Position numbers and translations under genes: made by a program. A stretch of DNA of 64,000 nt. Source: Dehalococcoidia bacterium (GTDB taxonomy: Bacteria > Chloroflexota > Dehalococcoidia > DSTF01 > JACRBR01). A model generated the notes under the pieces. That model ran no database searches. It saw nothing but the letters and a program-made list of their open reading frames with translations, and was not told the DNA's origin. Every line of letters begins with the position of its first letter. Within the stretch, counting starts at the first letter, position 1. Location: positions 186,001 to 250,000 of the forward strand of contig JBBDXD010000018.1 of assembly GCA_040902535.1 (NCBI GenBank). Direction: 5' to 3'. Shown here piece by piece: positions 6,449 to 61,069 of this stretch.

Positions 6449-6508
6449 GCGGGAGACGGACGGTTAGCTGGCGAGAGGCGTTTCATCGAAGGAGTGTAGC
6501 GGGGACGG

Positions 6509-6536
6509 AGAACTTTGAACCTCGAACCAAGAACCT
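6509..6536. repeat. 7-bp-period array (GAACC family), four units
   Basis: Four consecutive 7-mers share the core GAAC (AGAACTT, TGAACCT, CGAACCA, AGAACCT). They lie between the glycosyltransferase start and the GNAT stop. Read on the minus strand, the array ends in AAGTTCTCCGTC, the same edge as the array at 49429-49456. It belongs to the heptad-repeat class described in the findings. Confidence 0.75.
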
Positions 6537-6541
6537 GGATG

Positions 6542-35639: not shown

Positions 35640-35705
35640 GGGCGCTTCGGCGGAGTCTCTTAGCTGACCCTCGGTGAATGCGCCGAGGGTTTGTCCTTCG
35701 CTACG

Positions 35706-35768
35706 GCAAACAGCAAACAGCAAACGGCAAACGGCAAACAGCAAACAGCAAACAGCAAACAGCAAAGA
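35706..35768. repeat. 7-bp-period array GCAAACA, nine units
   Basis: Nine back-to-back 7-mers: GCAAACA twice, GCAAACG twice, GCAAACA four times, GCAAAGA. It lies between rpmB and yfcE. This is the longest and most regular heptad array in the window. Confidence 0.9.
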
Positions 35769-35834
35769 AGGTAAACGACCCGCAGTCACGACGCTGTGGT
35801 TCCTTCGTGTGCGACCGTCGGTCGGCGAGCGGTC

Positions 35835-35846: not shown

Positions 35847-36392
35847 ATGTACCGGATCGGGCTGATCGGCGACACGCACTACCCGGAGGCGGGACCGCTA
35901 TGGGATGAGGCGTACGACGCGCTGCGCGGCGTCGACGTCATCTTGCACGCAGGCGACCTCCACGTCGTGGCGGTGCTCGACTGGCTGGAGGAGCGCTGTG
36001 GCGCGCCGGTGATCGGCGTCCGCGGCAACGGTGATGACGGGAGCGGCGGCCGTCCCTTGTGCGCCGAGGACCCGCGTCTCAAGCCGGTGCAAACGCTGGA
36101 CATCGAGGGCGTACGCATCGGACTCGTGCACGATGCGACGTTGCCGGAGTGGCCGCCGCATCGCACGCTCGAATCGATCATGGAGCATCATTTCGGCGGC
36201 CGCGTCGACGTGCTCGTGCACGGCCATACGCATGTCACGCAGGTCGAGGACATGCGCGGCGTGCTGCTGGTGAACCCTGGCAGCCCGACCTTTCCCCGCA
36301 ACCACGCCCGGCGGCTCGGTACGGTGGGCTTCCTGGAAGTGCACGCCGGATCGGTACGGGCGTCGATCCACCAGCTTGTCGCTGGTCGCTAG
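35847..36392 (+). CDS. YfcE/MJ0936-type metallophosphoesterase
   Basis: This 181-residue calcineurin-like phosphodiesterase has metal-ligand motifs GLIGDTHYP, HAGDLHV, VRGNGDD (GNxD block), LVHDAT and HGHTHVTQ. Relatives hydrolyse phosphodiesters in vitro with unknown physiological substrates. The translation appears leaderless. The last residues, LVAGR, and the TAG stop are encoded by the first units of the heptad array that continues into the intergenic space. Confidence 0.9.
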   Translation: MYRIGLIGDTHYPEAGPLWDEAYDALRGVDVILHAGDLHVVAVLDWLEERCGAPVIGVRGNGDDGSGGRPLCAEDPRLKPVQTLDIEGVRIGLVHDATLPEWPPHRTLESIMEHHFGGRVDVLVHGHTHVTQVEDMRGVLLVNPGSPTFPRNHARRLGTVGFLEVHAGSVRASIHQLVAGR

Positions 36393-36430
36393 TTGCTTGT
36401 TGCTGGTTGCTGGTTGCTGGTTGCTTGTCA
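36375..36430. repeat. 7-bp-period array CTGGTTG, eight units, crossing the yfcE stop
   Basis: Eight 7-mers of the form CT(G/T/A)GT(T/C)G start inside yfcE at 36375, include its TAG stop (36390-36392) and run to 36430. The convergent dapB ends 14 bp further. Confidence 0.85.
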
Positions 36431-36443
36431 ACACGCCATAGCG

Positions 36444-49370: not shown

Positions 49371-49456
49371 AGAACCTTGAACCCATGAGGACCTTGACTC
49401 GAACCTTGACGAATTGTTCTTGCCGCTCGGTTCCAGGTTCCAGGTTCTAAGTTCTC
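49371..49456. repeat. Inverted pair of GAACC/GGTTC heptad arrays
   Basis: AGAACCTTGAACC at 49371-49383 is the complement, with one mismatch, of a stretch in 49436-49448. The right side is a 7-bp-period array (GGTTCCA twice, GGTTCTA, AGTTCTC; 49429-49456). It lies between glgA and the divergent nucleoside hydrolase. Its right edge AAGTTCTCCGTC matches the array at 6509. Confidence 0.7.
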
Positions 49457-49468
49457 CGTCTCAACGGC

Positions 49469-51703: not shown

Positions 51704-52828
51704 CTAGATGCTGAGCCCGCTGGCGACCAGTTCGCGGTGGTAGTCGGCGTCGCCCCAGGCTAGTTCGGCGGCCTTCTGGCGGCGGAAGTAGAGCTGCACC
51801 TTGTAGTCCTTGGTGAAGCCGATGCCGCCGTGGATCTGCTGGCCGTGCGCGACGACGCGGCGCGTCGCTTCGCTGACCCAGGCCTTCGCCATGTTGACGT
51901 TCATGTCGGCGTCCGGTTCGTCCTGGTCGACGGACCACGCGGCTCGGTACATGATGAAGCGCGAACCATCGACGTCGGTCACCATGTCGGCGGCCTTGTG
52001 CTGGATCGCCTGGAATGAGCCGATCGGCCGGCCGAACTGGATGCGGTCCTTCGCGTACTGGACGCTGATCTCGAAGTCCATCTGCGCCAGCCCGGTGAGG
52101 TACGCACACTCGATGACCGTGGCCTTGCGCTGGACCTTCTTGAACGTCGCCCAGCCGCCGGGGATGACGTTCGCCTTCGGCACCTTGACGTTCTCGAAGT
52201 TCACTTCCGCCTGCTTGTCGGCGGCGATCGTCTTGAGTTGCGTCTGGCTGATGCCCGCCGCCTTCGCATCGACGATGACGAGCGTGATGCCGTCTTCGCC
52301 CTTCGAGCCGGGCTTGCGGCCGACGACCGTGAAGAAGTCAGCGACGTTCGCATCGCGGACGAAGAGCTTCGTGCCGTTGAGCACGACGTCGTTGCCATCT
52401 TCCTTCACCTCGAGCGCCACGCCTTCGGCGTCGAAGCGCGCGGACGGCTCCGTGAACGCGAGCGTCCAGATCGCGTTGCCGCTGGCGATCTGCGGCAGGT
52501 ACTGCGACTTCTGCTCGTCGGTGCCGCCTTCGAGCAGCGGCAGCGTGCCGCCGACGACCGTCGAGATGAACGGTCCCGGCACGAGCGCGCGGCCGAACTC
52601 TTCGACGAGCACGACGAGGTCGAGGTAGCTGAAGCCGGCGCCGCCGTACTGGTCGGGGATCAGCAATCCCTGCCAGCCTTGCTCCGCCATCTTCTTCCAG
52701 AGGTCGGGCGAGTAGCCCTTTTCGTCCTCTTCCATCTCGCGGACGAGCGTCTCCGGGCATTCCTTCTCCAGGAAGTCCCGCGCGGTGTTCTTGAGCAGTT
52801 CTTGCTCTTCAGATAGTCCCAGGTCCAT
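51704..52828 (-). CDS. Acyl-CoA dehydrogenase paralogue 1 (short, non-canonical)
   Basis: This 374-residue ACAD-fold protein (MDLGLSEEQELLKNTARDFL, FTEPSARFDAEGVALEV, AHGQQIHGGIGFTKDYKVQL) is clearly more distant than the other five in the cluster. The C-terminal EGTS-type flavin/catalytic segment is replaced by AAELAWGDADYHRELV. It therefore lacks the usual base and resembles the partner subunits of heteromeric FadE enzymes. It is the last gene of the run, with AAGGAG nine bases before the ATG. It probably pairs with one of the longer paralogues (inference). Confidence 0.88.
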   Translation of the reverse strand: MDLGLSEEQELLKNTARDFLEKECPETLVREMEEDEKGYSPDLWKKMAEQGWQGLLIPDQYGGAGFSYLDLVVLVEEFGRALVPGPFISTVVGGTLPLLEGGTDEQKSQYLPQIASGNAIWTLAFTEPSARFDAEGVALEVKEDGNDVVLNGTKLFVRDANVADFFTVVGRKPGSKGEDGITLVIVDAKAAGISQTQLKTIAADKQAEVNFENVKVPKANVIPGGWATFKKVQRKATVIECAYLTGLAQMDFEISVQYAKDRIQFGRPIGSFQAIQHKAADMVTDVDGSRFIMYRAAWSVDQDEPDADMNVNMAKAWVSEATRRVVAHGQQIHGGIGFTKDYKVQLYFRRQKAAELAWGDADYHRELVASGLSI

Positions 52829-52917
52829 GTCCCACAGCTCCTTTCGCTGACATTCCCGTGTTATTCCGCCGCCCTCGCCCCGCGCGAGGGATAGTCGATG
52901 TGTCGATGCGGCCGCGC

Positions 52918-53334
52918 TCAGGCGCGCTCAGGTGTGTGATGCTTCCCTCCCCCTTCGCCATCGTCGTGCGCTTCCTGGTTGAGCAGAATGCGCGTCCAAA
53001 CCGGCCAGATAAGGAAGACCACCGCGCAAATCACGCCCGGCCAGATCGACCAGAACAGGTACTCGCTGCGAAAGGCTTCGTTCTCGGTCAGCACATGCCC
53101 TTCCAGGCAGGTCTCTGTGCGCTGTTTGATCTCTTCCTGCGGCACGTCCGTGCGGTCGATGCCCTGTTCGTCGGCGATCTCCCGCCGGTAGTCGGCGCAG
53201 TCGTTGTGCGTCGCGCCCGTCGGCATGTTGTCCGTCGCGTACAACGCCGAGCCGATGCCGACGGCCAGCCCGTAGATCGCGCCGGCGATTACGACGGCGA
53301 TGGCGAGGCGCTTGAGTGAGAATGCTTCACGCAC
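52918..53334 (-). CDS. Two-helix membrane protein, unknown
   Basis: This is a 138-residue protein starting at GTG 53334 with AGGAGA seven bases upstream. It has helices at about 9-31 (IAVVIAGAIYGLAVGIG) and 93-115 (WPGVICAVVFLIWPVWT). The outer loop contains two cysteines (NDCADY, TETCLEG) that may pair. The tail is His/Gly-rich. The broken IVP gene upstream ends inside its start (stop at 53327), so the cassette abuts it directly. Confidence 0.7.
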   Translation of the reverse strand: MREAFSLKRLAIAVVIAGAIYGLAVGIGSALYATDNMPTGATHNDCADYRREIADEQGIDRTDVPQEEIKQRTETCLEGHVLTENEAFRSEYLFWSIWPGVICAVVFLIWPVWTRILLNQEAHDDGEGGGKHHTPERA

Positions 53335-53774
53335 GACTGGTCTCCTGGAGGTCGGAGGTCGGAGGTCGGACGTCTAGGGACCGCCAACTCTCGATCAATC
53401 TGTACAACTGCCGCGCGACAATCTTGTACTCATTCGTGAAGCGCTGATTGTCAGCGTCGCCAATGTAATCCAGTTCCCTGGCAATTTCTAAGTGAATCTC
53501 CATCTCGGTCGCAGATCCCATCGCATTAGCGAGATAGGCTCTGAATTCCTTCGCCGAACGTCGCTTAGCGTATCCCTTCAGCAATGTTGGCGGGAATGGA
53601 CTTCGCCGCGCGGCGAACCTGGTTCGCAAGGTCGAACTTCTCATAGTCTGGGAACGTGAGCGCGAGAATGTGGACGGGCTGCAAGAGTGCCCATGAACGC
53701 TGGTACACCTCAAGATCGCGAAAGCTACGGATTGGACGACGCTCCTGTTGCGATCGTCCTCCGACCTCCGACAT
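53327..53774 (-). pseudogene. Four-helix-bundle IVP/S23 family gene, frameshifted (cassette 1)
   Basis: Two frames together give a complete ~145-residue protein of the 23S-rRNA intervening-sequence/four-helix-bundle family. The N-half (RDLEVYQRSWALLQPVH, FPDYEKFDLANQVRRA, KSIPANIAEG) stops just after GAAGGG. The C-half continues one frame over (YAKRRSAKEFRAYLANAMGS, EMEIHLEIARELDYIG). An extra G near 53574-53576 explains the break. The start ATG and an SD-like GGAGGT both lie in the right-hand heptad array, and the C-terminal codons (VRPPTSDLQE) are the left-hand array. A sequencing indel cannot be excluded for this copy. Confidence 0.8.
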
Positions 53775-53781
53775 CCGACCT
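53347..53781. mobile_element. IVP cassette 1, flanked by inverted GGAGGTC heptad arrays
   Basis: The left array (53347-53374) is GGAGGTC three times then GGACGTC. The right array (53754-53781) has the complement orientation (CCGACCT units). The 435-bp cassette lies between the stop of paralogue 2 (53792) and the ribosome site of the membrane-protein gene. Its structure is directly visible; mobility is inferred. Confidence 0.7.
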
Positions 53782-53791
53782 CCATTCCACC

Positions 53792-54964
53792 TCATCGCGG
53801 CATGCCCAGTCCGCGCTGCGCGATCACGCCGCGCTGGATCTCGCTCGTGCCGCCGGCGATCGTCGAGCCGACGGCGATGCGATACCAGGCGTCGAGGCGG
53901 CCACCGAGCGGGGCGCGCGGCGAGCCTTCGCTGAGCATGCCGTACATGCCCGCGGCCTTCACGCCGGTCCGCCCGATGCGCTGCGCCAGTTCCGAGCCAA
54001 ACAGCTTGGTGATCGACGCTTCCTGGTTGGGGATCAAACCTTTCGCCTGCATCGTCGCGACCCGATATGAGAGCACGATCGAGACCTGCGCCTCGATCAT
54101 CCGCTGCGCCAGCTCGTGGCGGAGCGCCTCGCGCCCGGCGTCGCGACGGCCGTCCGTGCGCACGAAGTCGATCAGCTCGCGCACCATGGTCTGCAAGCCG
54201 ACGCCGCTGATGATGCCGGAGCGCTCGAAGTCAAGTGTCGTCGTCGCGACGTACCACCCCTTGTTCAGCTCGCCGAGCAGATCCTTCTTAGGCACACGCA
54301 CGTTGTCGAAGAAGACCTCGTTGAAGCTCGGCGTGTCGGCAAGATTGGTCAGCGGCCGCACCGTGACGCCCGGCGTCTTCATATCGAGCAGAAAGTAACT
54401 GATGCCCTTGTGCTTCGGCACGTCGGTGTCCGTGCGCGCCAGCAGCATCATGCGCTGCGACCGGTGCGCGCCCGACGTCCAGATCTTCTGGCCGTTGATG
54501 ATGAAGTCGTCGCCGTCCTGCACCGCGCGCGTCTGCAGCGATGCGAGATCGGATCCCGAGCCCGGCTCGCTGAAGCCCTGACACCAGAACGTCTCCCCGG
54601 AGAGGATGCCAGACAGGTGCTCGCGCTTCTGTTCCTCCGTGCCGTGGACGATGATCGTCGGACCGGCAAGGCCGATCGCGAGGAAATTCGGACGTGGCGC
54701 CCGTGCGCGCGCCATCTCTTCATTGAAGATGAACTGCTGCATCACGCCGAGGCCGGCGCCGCCGTACTCCTTCGGCCACGCGGGCGCGACCCAGCCGCGC
54801 TTCGCGAGCGTCCTGAGCCAGTCGCGCTCGCGCTCGTCCTCACCGATGCCGACGCCCATGACGGCGTCATCGGCGGCGTGGAGGTCTGCGGGCAACTCCG
54901 CTCGGAGAAAGTCCTGGACTTCCCGCCTGAATGCGGCATCAGCGGGTGCGTCGGCGAAGTTCAT
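53792..54964 (-). CDS. Acyl-CoA dehydrogenase paralogue 2
   Basis: This 390-residue ACAD begins MNFADAPADAAFRREVQDFL. Substrate/FAD motifs are CQGFSEPGSGSDLASLQTRA and INGQKIWTSGAH, and the C-terminal AGGTSEIQRGVIAQRGLGMP. In medium-chain enzymes a catalytic Glu precedes GTS; here Gly occupies that site, so any base must lie elsewhere, as in the isovaleryl/long-chain type. ATG 54964 lies inside the stop of paralogue 3 (ATGA); the 47-residue upstream extension is spurious. Confidence 0.92.
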   Translation of the reverse strand: MNFADAPADAAFRREVQDFLRAELPADLHAADDAVMGVGIGEDERERDWLRTLAKRGWVAPAWPKEYGGAGLGVMQQFIFNEEMARARAPRPNFLAIGLAGPTIIVHGTEEQKREHLSGILSGETFWCQGFSEPGSGSDLASLQTRAVQDGDDFIINGQKIWTSGAHRSQRMMLLARTDTDVPKHKGISYFLLDMKTPGVTVRPLTNLADTPSFNEVFFDNVRVPKKDLLGELNKGWYVATTTLDFERSGIISGVGLQTMVRELIDFVRTDGRRDAGREALRHELAQRMIEAQVSIVLSYRVATMQAKGLIPNQEASITKLFGSELAQRIGRTGVKAAGMYGMLSEGSPRAPLGGRLDAWYRIAVGSTIAGGTSEIQRGVIAQRGLGMPR

Positions 54965-56142
54965 TGGCGGGGAAGTCCTAATCCACGCTGGGCGATGATG
55001 TTGCGCTGGATCTCCGACGTCCCGCCGGCGATCGCGCCGCCCACGCTGGTCACATATGACTTGCTGAAGCGGCCCTTGAGCTTTGCGTACGGGCTCTCCT
55101 CCCACAGCCCGCCGTACAACCCCATGATCCCCATGCCGACGCGCGCCTGCCGCTGGATGTACTCCGAGTTAAACACCTTGATGATCGAGGCTTCGTAGTT
55201 CGGCACGAGGCCCTTCGACTGCATGCTTACGACGCGGTACGACAGCAGCCGCGTCACCTCCAGCGACAACCACAGATCCGCGATGGCGTGCCGGACCAGC
55301 GGGCTCTCCCAGATCGGCGCACCGGTCGCGGCGTCTCGTTCATTTTTCGCGAAGCGCGTCAGGTCCTCGAGAGCGCGCATCGCCTGCGACGTGCCACCGA
55401 TCGACGACCGCTCGAAGTCGAGCGTCGTCGTCGCGATGTACCAGCCGCGGTTCAATTCGCCGAGCAGCCCGGACCGCGGCACCCGCACGTTCTCGAAGAA
55501 GACCTCGTTGAAGCCGGCGCCGTCCGCCATGTTGATCAACGGTCGCACGGTGATGCCCGGCGTCTTCATATCGAGCAGGAAGTAGCTGATGCCGCGATGC
55601 TTCGGCGCGTCGGGATCAGTGCGGGCGATGAGGAACATCCAGTCGGCGTAATGCGCCTGGCTGGTCCAGATCTTCTGGCCGTTGATCACGAAGTCGTCGC
55701 CGTCCTGCACGGCGCGCGTCTGCAACGACGCGAGGTCTGAGCCGGAATTTGGCTCACTATAACCCTGGCACCAGATCACGTCGCCGTTGGTAATACCGGG
55801 CAGGTGTTGCTTCTTCTGCTCATCGGTGCCGTAGAGGATGATCGTCGGGCCGAGATAGCCCACCGCCGCCGTATTGATGATCGGCGCGCGGGCGTAGCCC
55901 ATCTCCTCGTTGAAGACGACCTGGTCCCACAAGCTCATGCCGAGCCCGCCGTACTCGGCCGGCCACGCGGGAGCGATCCACTTCTTGGGCGCGAGCTGCT
56001 TCAGGAAGGTGCGTCCAACCTCGACGGATTCGTCGTCGATGGCGTTATCCGCGCCTTCCCATCCGGCGGGCAGCGCCGTATCCAGGAACGACCGTACTTC
56101 TGATCGAAAGGCGTCCTGCTCGGGGGTGAAGGTGAACCTCAT
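54961..56142 (-). CDS. Acyl-CoA dehydrogenase paralogue 3
   Basis: This 393-residue flavoenzyme (MRFTFTPEQDAFRSEVRSFL, CQGYSEPNSGSDLASLQTRA, INGQKIWTSQAHYADWMFLI, AGGTSEIQRNIIAQRGLGLP) removes two hydrogens from an acyl-CoA. It passes electrons to ETF; no etf genes are in view. It is tightly coupled to paralogue 2 by an ATGA overlap, the only junction among paralogues 2-6 without a cassette. The two may form a heteromer. Its own start overlaps the stop of the broken IVP gene of cassette 2. Confidence 0.92.
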   Translation of the reverse strand: MRFTFTPEQDAFRSEVRSFLDTALPAGWEGADNAIDDESVEVGRTFLKQLAPKKWIAPAWPAEYGGLGMSLWDQVVFNEEMGYARAPIINTAAVGYLGPTIILYGTDEQKKQHLPGITNGDVIWCQGYSEPNSGSDLASLQTRAVQDGDDFVINGQKIWTSQAHYADWMFLIARTDPDAPKHRGISYFLLDMKTPGITVRPLINMADGAGFNEVFFENVRVPRSGLLGELNRGWYIATTTLDFERSSIGGTSQAMRALEDLTRFAKNERDAATGAPIWESPLVRHAIADLWLSLEVTRLLSYRVVSMQSKGLVPNYEASIIKVFNSEYIQRQARVGMGIMGLYGGLWEESPYAKLKGRFSKSYVTSVGGAIAGGTSEIQRNIIAQRGLGLPRQ

Positions 56143-56492
56143 GACGAAGGCTCGCGGATGCTGGATGCTGGATGCTGGGCGTCGTATGCCGACCAGTGTT
56201 GTATGAGTCGCGTCAGCTGACGGGCGACGATCTGGTATTCGCCAAGCAGCACGGCGAATACTTCATCATCCACGTAACCCAGTTCCTTTGCGATCTTCAA
56301 ATGGACTTCCATCTCGTTCGCTGAGCCGAGTGCGTTGGTGAGAAACGCTCGAAACTCCTTCGGAGAACGGCGCTTTCCATATCCTTCGGCGATGTTCGTC
56401 GGAATAGACTTCGAAGCACGCTAAGCTGATTCGCCAAGTGCATCGAGGTCGTCATAGCTTCTGATCACACGCCGCGCCGGCTCTGCACACAC
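56139..56492 (-). pseudogene. IVP/S23 family gene with internal deletion and frameshift (cassette 2)
   Basis: The minus strand encodes VIRSYDDLDA, the family N-terminus, then jumps directly to a block corresponding to LANQL. About 25 residues are missing (the VYQR...PDYEKFD segment). One further base is lost before RASKSIPTNIAEGYGKRRSP. The rest is intact: EFRAFLTNALGSANEMEVHL and EYQIVARQLTRLIQHWSAYD. The C-terminal QHPASSIRE is encoded by the heptad array, and the TGA overlaps the next ATG. This is a true pseudogene, since a single indel cannot repair it. Confidence 0.8.
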
Positions 56493-56536
56493 GAACGCTC
56501 ACCTTCTCCTTGCCCAGCGTCCATCATCCATCATCC
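56156..56536. mobile_element. IVP cassette 2, flanked by inverted GGATGCT/ATCATCC heptad arrays
   Basis: On the left, GGATGCT three times then GGGCGTC (56156-56183). On the right, ATCATCC units (56516-56536), i.e. GGATGAT on the minus strand. It lies between the start of paralogue 3 and the stop of paralogue 4 (56543). At 381 bp it is shortened by the internal deletion. Confidence 0.68.
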
Positions 56537-56542
56537 GACCGC

Positions 56543-57724
56543 CTAGTCTCGCGGTAACCCGAGGCCGCGCTGCGCGATGATGTTGCGCTGGATCTCCGAC
56601 GTGCCGCCTTCGATGGTGTAGGCCTGCGAACGCAGGTACGTCGCCATCCAGCGGCCGCCGTGCGGCGCTTCGTCGCCGCGAAGCTGGCCGTAGAGCCCCA
56701 GCACATGGACGCCGGTGTGCGCGATGCGCTGGTTCAACTCGGTCGTGTAGAGCTTGAGCAGCGACGCCTCGTAGTTAGGGATGAGACCTCGCGCCTGCAT
56801 GCTCGCCACGCGATAAGACAGCATTCGCGCGACCTCAACTTCGATCATGCGGTCGGCAAGCTCGTAGCGAAGCATCGGGTTCGTGAGCAGCGTGCTCGTC
56901 GGCTCATTCTCGTGCTGCTTCGCGTAGTGCACCAACTCTTCGACGTGCTGCTTCATGCCGATCGCCGAGCCGATGCTCGAGCGCTCGAAGTCCAGCGTGG
57001 TGACGGCCGCGTACCAACCGCGGTTCTCCTCGCCGATCACGTTGTCCTTGGGGATGCGCACGTTGTCGAAGAAGACCTCGTTGAACTCGTGGCTGTTGCC
57101 CAGGTTGTACAGAGGCCGCACTTCGACTCCGGGCGTCTTCATGTCGAGGATGAAGTAGGTGATGCCGCGGTGCTTGGGCGCGTCAGGATCGGTGCGCGTG
57201 AGCAGGATCATGTACTTCGCCATGTGCGCGAGCGTCGTCCAGATCTTCTGGCCATTGATGACGTAGTCATCGCCGTCGCGGACGGCGCGCGTCTGCAACG
57301 CCGCCAGGTCGGAGCCGGCGCCGGGCTCGCTGTAGCCCTGGCACCAGATGTCCTCGCCGCGGAGCATGCCCGGCAGGTACTTCTTCTTCTGATCCTCCGT
57401 GCCATGGACGATAAGCGTCGGGCCCGCCATGCCCAGCCCGATGATCATGTGGAGCGGGCGCGGCGCCTTCGCGGTCGCCATCTCCTCGTTGAAGACGAAC
57501 TGCTGCACCGTGCTCATGCCGGCGCCGCCGTACTCCGTCGGCCATGCCGGCGCGATCCACCCCTTCCCGCCGAGGAGCTTAAACCATGCCTGGTTGCGCT
57601 CCCAGTTGCCCATCAGCGCCTCGGCGCCGGACTGGCCGGGCTTGGGCTTCGGCGCTTCCTTCTCGATGAACGCCCGCACCTCAGCGCGGAACGATGCCTC
57701 TTCTGGTGTATCCGTAAAGTCCAT
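56543..57724 (-). CDS. Acyl-CoA dehydrogenase paralogue 4
   Basis: This 393-residue ACAD opens MDFTDTPEEASFRAEVRAFI, with a Pro/Lys/Gly-rich insertion near residue 25. It has CQGYSEPGAGSDLAALQTRA, INGQKIWTTLAHMAKYMILL and EGGTSEIQRNIIAQRGLGLP. Here a Glu precedes the GG (TIEGGTSEIQ), one residue earlier than the classical position, unlike paralogues 2, 3 and 5 (AGG). AGGAGACC lies just before the ATG, adjoining the left array of cassette 3. Confidence 0.92.
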   Translation of the reverse strand: MDFTDTPEEASFRAEVRAFIEKEAPKPKPGQSGAEALMGNWERNQAWFKLLGGKGWIAPAWPTEYGGAGMSTVQQFVFNEEMATAKAPRPLHMIIGLGMAGPTLIVHGTEDQKKKYLPGMLRGEDIWCQGYSEPGAGSDLAALQTRAVRDGDDYVINGQKIWTTLAHMAKYMILLTRTDPDAPKHRGITYFILDMKTPGVEVRPLYNLGNSHEFNEVFFDNVRIPKDNVIGEENRGWYAAVTTLDFERSSIGSAIGMKQHVEELVHYAKQHENEPTSTLLTNPMLRYELADRMIEVEVARMLSYRVASMQARGLIPNYEASLLKLYTTELNQRIAHTGVHVLGLYGQLRGDEAPHGGRWMATYLRSQAYTIEGGTSEIQRNIIAQRGLGLPRD

Positions 57725-57734
57725 GGTTGGTCTC

Positions 57735-58164
57735 CTAGTGATTGGTGACTGGTGATTGGTCTCTCTTGGACCAGTACTGAATCAGCCGAGTCAACTGCTT
57801 GCCGACAATCTCATACTCCGCGCGAAGGCGTTCGAATTCCTCTGCGGTGATGTACTCCAACTCCAACTCATGCGAAGTCTTCAAGTGAACTTCCATCTCA
57901 TTTGCCGATCCAACGGCGATGGCGAGGTAGGTGCAAAACTCCTTCGCTGGACCGCCGTCCTCCATAGCCCTCAGCGATGTTGGCTGGGATGGACTTGCAG
58001 GCGCGTCGCATCTGGTTCGCAAGTCCATACTTCTCGTAGTCCGGAAAACCATGAACCAACTGGTGAATTGGTTTCTGCAACCCGAACGCGCGCCGGTACA
58101 CGTCAAGGTCTTCATAACCGCGCGACATACGAGATGTGGCTTCCACAAATTCACCAATCACCAA
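57735..58164 (-). pseudogene. Four-helix-bundle IVP/S23 family gene, frameshifted (cassette 3)
   Basis: The N-half from 58164 (or the better ATG at 58128, MSRGYEDLDVYRRAFGLQKP) reads to NIAEGYGGRRSSEG. The C-half resumes one frame over near 57945: AKEFCTYLAIAVGSANEMEV, then ITAEEFERLRAEYEIVGKQL and RLIQYWSKRDQSPVTNH. The C-terminal QSPVTNH and the TAG stop come from the heptad array. The break is about seven residues beyond that in cassette 1. The cassette-internal family match is strong on both sides of the shift. Confidence 0.8.
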
Positions 58165-58172
58165 TCCCCATC
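57738..58172. mobile_element. IVP cassette 3, flanked by inverted GTGATTG/CACCAAT heptad arrays
   Basis: On the left, GTGATTG, GTGACTG, GTGATTG (57738-57758). On the right, CACCAAT twice within 58145-58172, which is ATTGGTG on the minus strand. The 435-bp cassette lies between the ribosome site of paralogue 4 and the stop of paralogue 5 (58175). Confidence 0.7.
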
Positions 58173-58174
58173 TG

Positions 58175-59356
58175 CTAATCGCGCGGAAGCCCGAGGCCTC
58201 GCGTGGCGATGATGTTGCGCTGAATCTCGGAGGTGCCGCCGGCGATCGTCGATGACAGCGACGTCAGGTAGGAGCTTTCGTAGCGGCCCTTCATCGGCGC
58301 TTCATCGCCGTAGAGCTGGCCGTACAGCCCAAGCACCTTCATGCCTGTCCGCGCGATGCGCTGGCCGAGTTCCGACGCAAAGAGCTTGGTCATCGATGCT
58401 TCGTGGTTCGGAATCAGCCCGTTCGCCTGCATGGTGATTACGCGGTACGACATCAGCCGCGCCACCGACGATTCGATGTAGCGGTCAGCGAGTTCGGTCT
58501 TCACGCTCGAGAGACGCTGCGTGCGGCTCGTGCCGTCGTCCGCGTGCTGGTTGGCGTACTTCACCAGTCCATCGAGCTGCAACCGCAGTCCGACCGCGCT
58601 GCCAATGCTCGAGCGTTCGAAGTCGAGCGTCGTTGCGCCGACGTACCAGCCGCGGTTGACCTCGCCGACGACGTTCTTCGCCGGGACGCGCACGTCGGTG
58701 AAGAACACCTCGTTGAACATGTTCTGGTTCGCCAGATTCGTCAGCGGCCGCACCTCGACGCCTGGCGTCTTCATGTCGAGCAGGAAGTAGGAGATGCCCT
58801 TGTGCTTCGGCGCCTCGGGGTCGGTGCGGGCCATCATGAACATCCAGTGCGCGTACTGGGCGCCGGACGTCCAGATCTTCTGCCCGTTGATCACGTAGTC
58901 ATCGCCATCCTTGACGGCGCGCGTCTGCAACGACGCGAGGTCGGAGCCCGACCCTGGCTCAGAAAACCCCTGGCACCACTGCACTTCGCCGGAAAGGATT
59001 CGCCCCAGGTGTTCCTTTTTCTGGTCGTCGTTGCCGTGCGCGATGAGCGTCGGGCCGACCATGGAGACGCCCATGCCGCCGACGGGCGGGACGCGATTCT
59101 GGGCGAACTCCTCGTTCATGATGAACTGCTGCATGACGGTGAGCCCGGCGCCGCCGTACTCCTTCGGCCAGGCCGGCGCGATCCAGCCTTTCGACGAGAG
59201 CTTCTGACGCAGGCCCTTCAGCCGTTCGAAGGCGCCACGGTACATGCCGCGTTCGGCGAGTTCGCTCGCCTGCTCATCGGCCTGCACGTCATTCTTGATG
59301 AAGCTGCGCACTTCCTGGCGAAACGCGGCCTCCGTGTCGTTATCGCGAAAATCCAT
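58175..59356 (-). CDS. Acyl-CoA dehydrogenase paralogue 5
   Basis: This 393-residue ACAD has an N-terminus MDFRDNDTEAAFRQEVRSFI and a charged segment ADEQASELAERGMYRGAFER that replaces the Pro-rich insertion of paralogue 4. Motifs are CQGFSEPGSGSDLASLQTRA, INGQKIWTSGAQYAHWMFMM and AGGTSEIQRNIIATRGLGLP. AGGAGACC lies near the ATG. By eye it is closest to paralogue 2 in the central domain. The substrate chain type cannot be told from the sequence alone. Confidence 0.92.
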   Translation of the reverse strand: MDFRDNDTEAAFRQEVRSFIKNDVQADEQASELAERGMYRGAFERLKGLRQKLSSKGWIAPAWPKEYGGAGLTVMQQFIMNEEFAQNRVPPVGGMGVSMVGPTLIAHGNDDQKKEHLGRILSGEVQWCQGFSEPGSGSDLASLQTRAVKDGDDYVINGQKIWTSGAQYAHWMFMMARTDPEAPKHKGISYFLLDMKTPGVEVRPLTNLANQNMFNEVFFTDVRVPAKNVVGEVNRGWYVGATTLDFERSSIGSAVGLRLQLDGLVKYANQHADDGTSRTQRLSSVKTELADRYIESSVARLMSYRVITMQANGLIPNHEASMTKLFASELGQRIARTGMKVLGLYGQLYGDEAPMKGRYESSYLTSLSSTIAGGTSEIQRNIIATRGLGLPRD

Positions 59357-59370
59357 GTCATGGTCTCCTA

Positions 59371-59846
59371 GTCGCTAGTCTCTGGTCGCTGGTGGGAACA
59401 AAGACTCCAATCCCGTGAATCAATTGGCGCGAGTGGGGGTTTGCGAGCGCCAGTACGCAATCAAACGGTTCAGTTGCTTACCGATGATCGCGTACTCCTG
59501 ACCGGAACGCGCCTGCTCCTCCGGAGAGATATAACCAAGTTCGTGCGCTATCTGGAGGTGAACCTCCATTTCGTTGGCGGAACCCATGGCATTGGTCAGA
59601 TAGAAGGCGAACTCCTTGCCTGATCGCCGCTTCGCGTAGCCTTCCGCGATGTTGGCGGGTATCGACTTGTTGGCTCGCCGGATCTGGCTCGCCAGATCAA
59701 ATTTCTCGTAATCGGGAAACCGTAGTGCCAGCTCATGCATGGGCTTCAAAAGCGATCGCGTCCTCTGATACACCCCTAATCCCTCATACCCTTTGGCTTC
59801 TTGCATTTCACCACCAACGACCAGCAACCAGCGACCAGCGACCAAT
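59371..59846. mobile_element. IVP cassette 4, flanked by inverted GTCGCTG/GACCAGC heptad arrays
   Basis: On the left, GTCGCTA, GTCTCTG, GTCGCTG (59371-59391). On the right, five units including GACCAGC twice (59812-59846), the reverse complement pattern. This 476-bp cassette holds the only intact IVP gene. It lies between the ribosome site of paralogue 5 and the stop of paralogue 6 (59852). Confidence 0.72.
59420..59806 (-). CDS. Four-helix-bundle protein of the IVP/S23 (23S rRNA intervening sequence) family
   Basis: This 128-residue protein starts at ATG 59806 (MQEAKGYEGLGVYQRTRSLL); a longer frame through the heptad array is possible. It has the family core FPDYEKFDLASQIRRANKSI, then PANIAEGYAKRRSGKEFAFY and TNAMGSANEMEVHLQIAHEL. 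It is all-helical, and relatives form pentameric barrels. Homologues are encoded within intervening sequences of 23S rRNA and also occur as the Avd accessory protein of diversity-generating retroelements, where a related fold binds nucleic acid. No reverse transcriptase is nearby. It is the only uninterrupted copy in the window and could act in trans on the other cassettes (inference). Confidence 0.88.
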   Translation of the reverse strand: MQEAKGYEGLGVYQRTRSLLKPMHELALRFPDYEKFDLASQIRRANKSIPANIAEGYAKRRSGKEFAFYLTNAMGSANEMEVHLQIAHELGYISPEEQARSGQEYAIIGKQLNRLIAYWRSQTPTRAN

Positions 59847-59851
59847 CGGCG

Positions 59852-61069
59852 TTAGTCACGCGGCAATCCCAATCCCCTCGACGCGATGATGTTGCGCTGG
59901 ATCTCCGATGTCCCGCCGCCGACGACGCTCGTCGTCGCGTAGATGTACGTGCTCTCGATGCGGCCGTTCATCACCGCGTGCTCGCTGCCGCGCTTGAGCT
60001 GGCCGTACAGCCCGATCGCCTTCATGGCGGTCTGCGAGATGCGGACGTCCAACTCCGAAGAAAAGAGCTTGGCGATCGAAGACTCCTTGTTTGGCACCAG
60101 GCCGCGGTTCTGCATCGAGATCACCTGCGTGCAGAGCATCTGCTCGACTTCGGACTCGACGGCGCGATCGGCGATCTCGATCCGCAAGTGAGGGTTCTCG
60201 GAGATGAAGCCCTCGTCGCGGTGGTCCACGACGAACTTCGCGAGGTCGCGCACCATGTGCCCGTGCGACACGCTCGTGGCGATGCCCGAGCGTTCGAAAT
60301 CCAGCGTCGTCGTGCCGACGTACCAGCCGCGGTTCTCCTCGCCGATCAGGTTCTCCTGCGGCACCCGCACGTTATCGAAGAAGACTTCGTTGAAGTCGTG
60401 GTTGCCCGCCATGTTCACCAGCGGGCGAATATCGATACCGGGCGACTTCATGTCGAGGATGAAGTAGCTGATGCCCTTGTGCTTCGACGCCTCGGGGTTG
60501 GTGCGCGCGAGCAGGATCATGTACTGCGCGACGTGGGCGCCCGACGTCCAGATCTTCTGGCCGTTGACGACGTAGTCGTCGCCGTCCTTGACCGCCCGTG
60601 TCTGCACGGCTGCCAGGTCCGACCCGGCGCCCGGTTCGCTGAAGCCCTGGCACCAGACCACGTCGCCGCGCACGATGTCGGGCAGGTACTTCTGCTTCTG
60701 CTCTTCGTTGCCATAGAGAATGATCGTCGGGCCCGCCCAGCCGACGCCGATGCCGTAGTTGCCACCACTCGGCGCACCGGCCGTGGACATCTCCTGCTTG
60801 AAAATGAACTGCTCCATGATGGTCATGCCGGCGCCGCCATACTGCTTCGGCCATGCGGGCGCGATCCAGCCCTTCTTAGCGAGTTTCTTCGCCCAGGTCG
60901 TGTTGAGTTGGCGGTATTCGTCGGTGCTGAGGCGGTAATCATCCCAGCCGCCGCCGCCGAACATCGCGCTGAAGCCCCGCCTGCGGATGCCGGGCGGGCA
61001 CTCCTGCTGGATGAATGCGCGCACCTCCGTGCGGAAGGCGGCTTCTTGGGACGTGTCGTTAAAGTCCAT
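59852..61069 (-). CDS. Acyl-CoA dehydrogenase paralogue 6
   Basis: This 405-residue ACAD is first in the cluster. It opens MDFNDTSQEAAFRTEVRAFI, with a Gly/Asp-rich insertion (FSAMFGGGGWDDYRLSTDEY) near residue 40. Motifs are CQGFSEPGAGSDLAAVQTRA, VNGQKIWTSGAHVAQYMILL and GGGTSEIQRNIIASRGLGLP. It has no clear SD. An 18-bp palindrome lies 47-64 bp upstream (61116-61133), and the TetR gene precedes it on the same strand, so it is the promoter-proximal enzyme gene. Confidence 0.92.
   Translation of the reverse strand: MDFNDTSQEAAFRTEVRAFIQQECPPGIRRRGFSAMFGGGGWDDYRLSTDEYRQLNTTWAKKLAKKGWIAPAWPKQYGGAGMTIMEQFIFKQEMSTAGAPSGGNYGIGVGWAGPTIILYGNEEQKQKYLPDIVRGDVVWCQGFSEPGAGSDLAAVQTRAVKDGDDYVVNGQKIWTSGAHVAQYMILLARTNPEASKHKGISYFILDMKSPGIDIRPLVNMAGNHDFNEVFFDNVRVPQENLIGEENRGWYVGTTTLDFERSGIATSVSHGHMVRDLAKFVVDHRDEGFISENPHLRIEIADRAVESEVEQMLCTQVISMQNRGLVPNKESSIAKLFSSELDVRISQTAMKAIGLYGQLKRGSEHAVMNGRIESTYIYATTSVVGGGTSEIQRNIIASRGLGLPRD

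Follow-up and report, generated by a model that had tools for sequence, protein, structure and literature searches.

Why are three of four IVP genes in one operon broken, and why do the breaks fall within the same segment of about 30 residues? IVP proteins are common and, to our knowledge, have no known function. The window analysed here is a stretch of 64,000 nucleotides on contig 18, in a draft genome of 3.18 Mb. In this window, five acyl-CoA dehydrogenase (ACAD) genes, A to E, form a conserved array on the minus strand, and IVP genes occupy three of its spacers and the region after ACAD E. Each IVP open reading frame (ORF) lies between two complementary arms of 7-nt repeats, and each of these four cassettes has its own heptamer. 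The locus is arranged as follows:

53340..53788 or about 53346-53785, minus strand: cassette 1, a heptamer-armed IVP element after ACAD E; its arms are repeat pair I3 and its ORF has a one-base insertion
53792..56142, minus strand: ACAD genes E and D, without a cassette in between
56147..56545 or about 56156-56537, minus strand: cassette 2, a heptamer-armed IVP element in the spacer between ACAD C and D, with deletions of ~24 codons and of one base
56543..57724, minus strand: ACAD gene C
57729..58168 or about 57735-58168, minus strand: cassette 3, a heptamer-armed IVP element in the spacer between ACAD B and C, with a one-base insertion in the ORF
58175..59356, minus strand: ACAD gene B
59362..59850, minus strand: cassette 4, a heptamer-armed IVP element in the spacer between ACAD A and B, with an intact ORF
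59420..59845, minus strand: intact IVP of cassette 4, a four-helix-bundle protein of 141 aa (PF05635/TIGR02436)

The lesions were located with an IVP profile of 118 columns, built on 46 intact IVPs and aligned to the DNA with frameshifts permitted:

53574..53576, minus strand: frameshift of cassette 1, one extra base at column 54 of 118, after NIAE (between EG and Y)
56418..56448, minus strand: lesions of cassette 2, a one-base loss and a deletion junction
57947..57949 (about 57948), minus strand: frameshift of cassette 3, one extra base at column 60 of 118

The original prediction had described the same three breaks. It placed the frameshift of cassette 1 between EG and Y and that of cassette 3 shortly thereafter; the alignment found the two insertions six columns apart, both just past the NIAEG core. 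Cassette 2, thought to have lost about 25 residues and one base, lacks ~24 codons from its first third (junction near 56440-56448) as well as one base near 56418-56424 (column ~41), and contains an in-frame TAG. The genome-wide count of IVP genes and mapping of their breaks that had been proposed gave eight IVP loci, of which four were intact and four were broken. The fourth broken gene lies outside the window (G000:C14:131070-131389, hereafter the C14 copy) and carries a two-base insertion at column 63. The four intact IVPs of the genome fall into three subfamilies.

Cassette 4, which lies outside the span 53327-58164 to which the original prediction referred, indeed holds the only intact IVP gene of the window. 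Its product is a full-length member of both PF05635 (E=2e-27, 95.8 bits, cut-off 33.8) and TIGR02436 (E=3e-28, 98.2 bits, cut-off 24). In the broken copies the matches to these families come in two pieces, and three of the four copies in the window encode no full protein in one frame. The closest solved relative of the cassette 4 IVP is XCC0516 (2gsc), and its predicted structure has helices at residues 24-41 (broken at 32), 51-71, 76-102 and 108-135. Avd of diversity-generating retroelements (DGRs) shows only a distant protein similarity to it; NF033474 (Avd) matched with E=1.8e-4 and 21.8 bits, where the cut-off is 80, and an identity as a DGR accessory protein was rejected on this score. 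A mobile hairpin of the REP/RAYT type was rejected as well, as cassette 4 encodes no Y1 (REP) transposase and its Pfam matches are PF05635 and a bAvd match below the cut-off.

Errors of sequencing or assembly, which the original prediction had named as a possible source of the one-base shifts in cassettes 1 and 3, are quite unlikely to be their cause. The draft assembly does comprise 28 contigs, and one gene of another family, a short-chain dehydrogenase (SDR) gene at G000:C27:23277-23842, is split into two frames too. However, this was the sole frameshift of the control families, one split in ~40 adh_short domains, and none was found in 31 full ABC_tran domains and seven full-length ACADs of the same genome. 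The three control families thus had ~1 split per roughly 14,500 codons, versus at least five lesions in ~940 IVP codons. Moreover, cassette 2 has a large deletion besides its one-base loss, and broken IVPs occur in other genomes too.

The positions of the breaks within a segment of about 30 residues were confirmed, but their clustering is weak as a signal, since three breaks inside 30 of 118 columns are expected by chance with p=0.16. Genome-wide, the frameshifts at columns 54, 60 and 63 span a range of 9 (p=0.017-0.026, post hoc), and the four small lesions at columns 41, 54, 60 and 63 gave p=0.02-0.04, also post hoc. Plain random decay leaves unexplained why the three pure frameshifts found in this genome are confined to 10 columns. 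A mutation hotspot, the second reading in the original prediction, would make the NIAEGYxxRRS stretch prone to indels, for example by slippage or by recombination between copies within the words they conserve best. The three columns named above agree with it, two of the three frameshifts resemble local duplications, and a 15-nt word common to cassette 1 and the C14 copy adjoins the break of cassette 1. Conversely, the three events are unlike in site and size.

A class-wide frameshift map bears on the same point. It was made from partial IVP hits in 393 genomes of the class, leaving out those at contig ends (G207:C102 and G263:C44). In the other genomes of the class, 6 of the 23 mapped frameshifts fell in columns 50-70 (expected 23%, p=0.42) and only one of the 23 in columns 54-63, where this genome differed from the others (Fisher p=0.0015). 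Several of the class-wide shifts, around columns 95-105, may reflect natural variation of the C-terminus misread by the aligner, which weakens the hotspot test somewhat, and without them the share of columns 50-70 goes up. Because of these possible miscalls, a family-wide hotspot is unsupported rather than contradicted. Overall, we consider a hotspot unlikely; the cluster of frameshifts is possibly private to this genome. The excess of broken IVPs in the genome is firmer than the clustering of their breaks: 4 of 8 copies are broken here versus roughly 30 of 240 class-wide, the latter being an estimated count (Fisher p=0.014).

The directions and sites of the shifts contradict programmed ribosomal frameshifting, which the original prediction had offered as a less likely reading and by which both halves would be fused into one protein. 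The downstream frame is open and conserved in cassettes 1 and 3 and in the C14 copy, as such a mechanism would demand. However, the shifts are +1, +1 and +2 at columns 54, 60 and 63 and -1 at column 41 in cassette 2, with no common shift site, and cassette 4 and most relatives are unbroken. The same spacers also differ in relatives. We rejected programmed frameshifting, which appears extremely improbable.

It is highly unlikely, too, that the breaks are functional, in the sense that splitting the bundle between helices 2 and 3 would leave two-helix fragments with a remaining activity or an inhibitory effect. On the predicted structure of the cassette 4 IVP, columns 54, 60 and 63 map to the last part of helix 2, the first part of helix 3 or the loop between them, as this idea would have it. 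Yet the downstream halves have no evident start of their own, break sites lie elsewhere in other genomes, and the lesion of cassette 2 is in helices 1-2.

The ACAD array is kept across the family, and a scan of genome contigs yielded two relatives only. In G006 the IVP of the C-D spacer is intact, in contrast to the broken cassette 2 of this genome, whereas in G004 the IVP of the A-B spacer is multiply broken, in contrast to the intact cassette 4. No IVP was found in the ACAD spacers examined in G003. Judging from position and similar heptamers, cassettes 2 and 4 may be orthologous to the relatives' copies; the protein tree gave no resolved branching at this point, nor an order among cassettes 1-4. 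When IVP-filled and empty ACAD spacers were set side by side, divergence was too high for the junctions to be defined.

Two of the arrays in these relatives showed further repeats. At L113 (G006:C44), the ACAD D-E spacer has a complementary pair of ACAACAG-type arms with the IVP absent, and a single GGATGTT-type arm follows ACAD E; these arms without an IVP are candidates for elements after loss of the ORF. The spacers of the IVP-free ACAD array at L112 (G003:C29) contain a different repeated palindrome, GAGCGCGGGCTTTCAGCCCGCG.

Taken together, the broken genes are most likely the result of recent, independent decay of a dispensable IVP ORF inside multicopy heptamer-armed elements. Decay of selfish copies was also the first reading in the original prediction, and it is the best supported of the interpretations given there. 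In its favour, the lesions (a large deletion and shifts of +1, +1, +2 and -1) all differ in site, and integrity at the same ACAD spacers differs in relatives. Compared with paralogs, pN was 0.2-0.4 and pS near saturation in both halves of the genes, in the broken copies too. Hence, the breaks are recent, and the IVP ORFs were under purifying selection before they broke.

The repeat arms outlast the IVP ORF and are kept in the broken copies. In the window, the arms are:

53340..53381, minus strand: 3′ heptamer arm of cassette 1, GGAGGTC type
53750..53788, minus strand: 5′ heptamer arm of cassette 1
56147..56186, minus strand: 3′ heptamer arm of cassette 2, GGATGCT type
56508..56545, minus strand: 5′ heptamer arm of cassette 2, GGATGAT type
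57733..57765, minus strand: 3′ heptamer arm of cassette 3, GGTGATT type
58150..58172, minus strand: 5′ heptamer arm of cassette 3
59365..59397, minus strand: 3′ heptamer arm of cassette 4, GGTCGCT type
59808..59850, minus strand: 5′ heptamer arm of cassette 4

Arms were called by a 7-nt period with at least 14 of 21 matches. Class-wide, arms were present on at least one side of 84% of the 62 intact and 89% of the 28 broken IVP loci, compared with 3% of the 373 segments used as controls, and intact copies showed no difference from broken ones in how complementary their arms are (p=0.48). The 5′ and 3′ heptamers agreed in 5.2 of 7 positions within a locus and in 3.25 of 7 between loci. Furthermore, heptamer type tracked IVP relatedness between genomes after GC content was removed (partial rho 0.23-0.27, null sd 0.044), with none of 1000 permutations as high; the relation also held among proteins with an identity below 60%, at a partial rho of 0.226 (null sd 0.044). 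This covariation implies that arms and ORF evolve as one unit, although it could stem from joint inheritance as well as from recognition.

The cassettes share several features with the intervening sequence (IVS) of the 23S rRNA of Coxiella burnetii, an insert of 428 nt with heptameric repeats upstream of an S23p ORF (PMC4990558). RNase III cuts this IVS out, its ORF is eroding, and its authors suggested that the RNA is more important than the protein (PMC4990558). Size (428 versus ~400-450 nt), an S23p-family ORF in a stem loop, heptamers and an eroding ORF are common to both. The predicted folds of cassettes 1-4 likewise have the stem by which an IVS is recognised, their ends being joined by 24-48 pairs with the ORF in the loop. 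In contrast to the Coxiella IVS, the cassettes have heptamer arrays on both sides and many different heptamers per genome, and they lie in spacers of a protein-coding operon instead of in rRNA. As they stand between ACAD genes, and a search of 52800-60000 against Rfam gave no match, they are not 23S rRNA IVSs by defining location.

Heptanucleotide repeats have been described from other bacterial spacers, such as TAACTGA of Beggiatoaceae (PMC4679880) and elements in Geobacter metallireducens (PMC2700814). These repeats are likewise 7 nt long, spacer-borne and present in many copies. Unlike them, the cassettes have a heptamer that varies per copy, complementary arms and a bracketed IVP gene; S23 or four-helix proteins are not mentioned in the passages searched. 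Within the portion of the literature covered, no paper turned up that describes IVP genes outside rRNA as part of heptamer-armed elements.

On the most likely reading, cassettes 1-4 all derive from one kind of small multicopy element, ~400-450 nt long and consisting of two complementary arms and one IVP ORF. In RNA, the arms would form a closed stem with the ORF in its loop, comparable to the intervening sequences of 23S rRNA. A single copy could do without its own ORF, and independent small indels would then break the ORFs while the arms stay. We infer that such elements can move, that they function as RNA and that their IVP protein acts on the repeat arms. A broader version is tentative and perhaps doubtful: IVP genes outside rRNA may be the cargo of widespread IVS-like elements in mRNA spacers, with each IVP recognising its own heptamer type and the broken copies being non-autonomous and served in trans. 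The broken genes themselves represent ordinary decay; their value is that the two parts of the element come apart, with the arms longer-lived than the protein. The link between heptamer type and IVP relatedness leads to a concrete question, namely whether an IVP binds its own arms.

Several further repeats and insertions were observed. The motif AGGAGACC closes cassettes 1, 3 and 4 (53340-53347, 57729-57736 and 59362-59369) directly upstream of the next gene's start codon, and could be that gene's ribosome-binding site. Two single heptamer arrays, at 6508-6539 and 49419-49461, are separated by 43 kb; over 32 nt one is the near-perfect reverse complement of the other, and neither encloses an IVP. 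Long heptamer arrays of the AAACAGC type and its near complement (35698-35775 and 36372-36433) surround a metallophosphoesterase gene (35847-36392, PF12850), with no IVP. The IVP genes at L063 (G173:C2) and L060 (G031:C62) are interrupted near columns 65-69, by additional DNA of ~470 nt and ~130 nt, respectively. Finally, the arms at L026, L028, L031 and L036 have a period of 8 nt instead of 7 nt.
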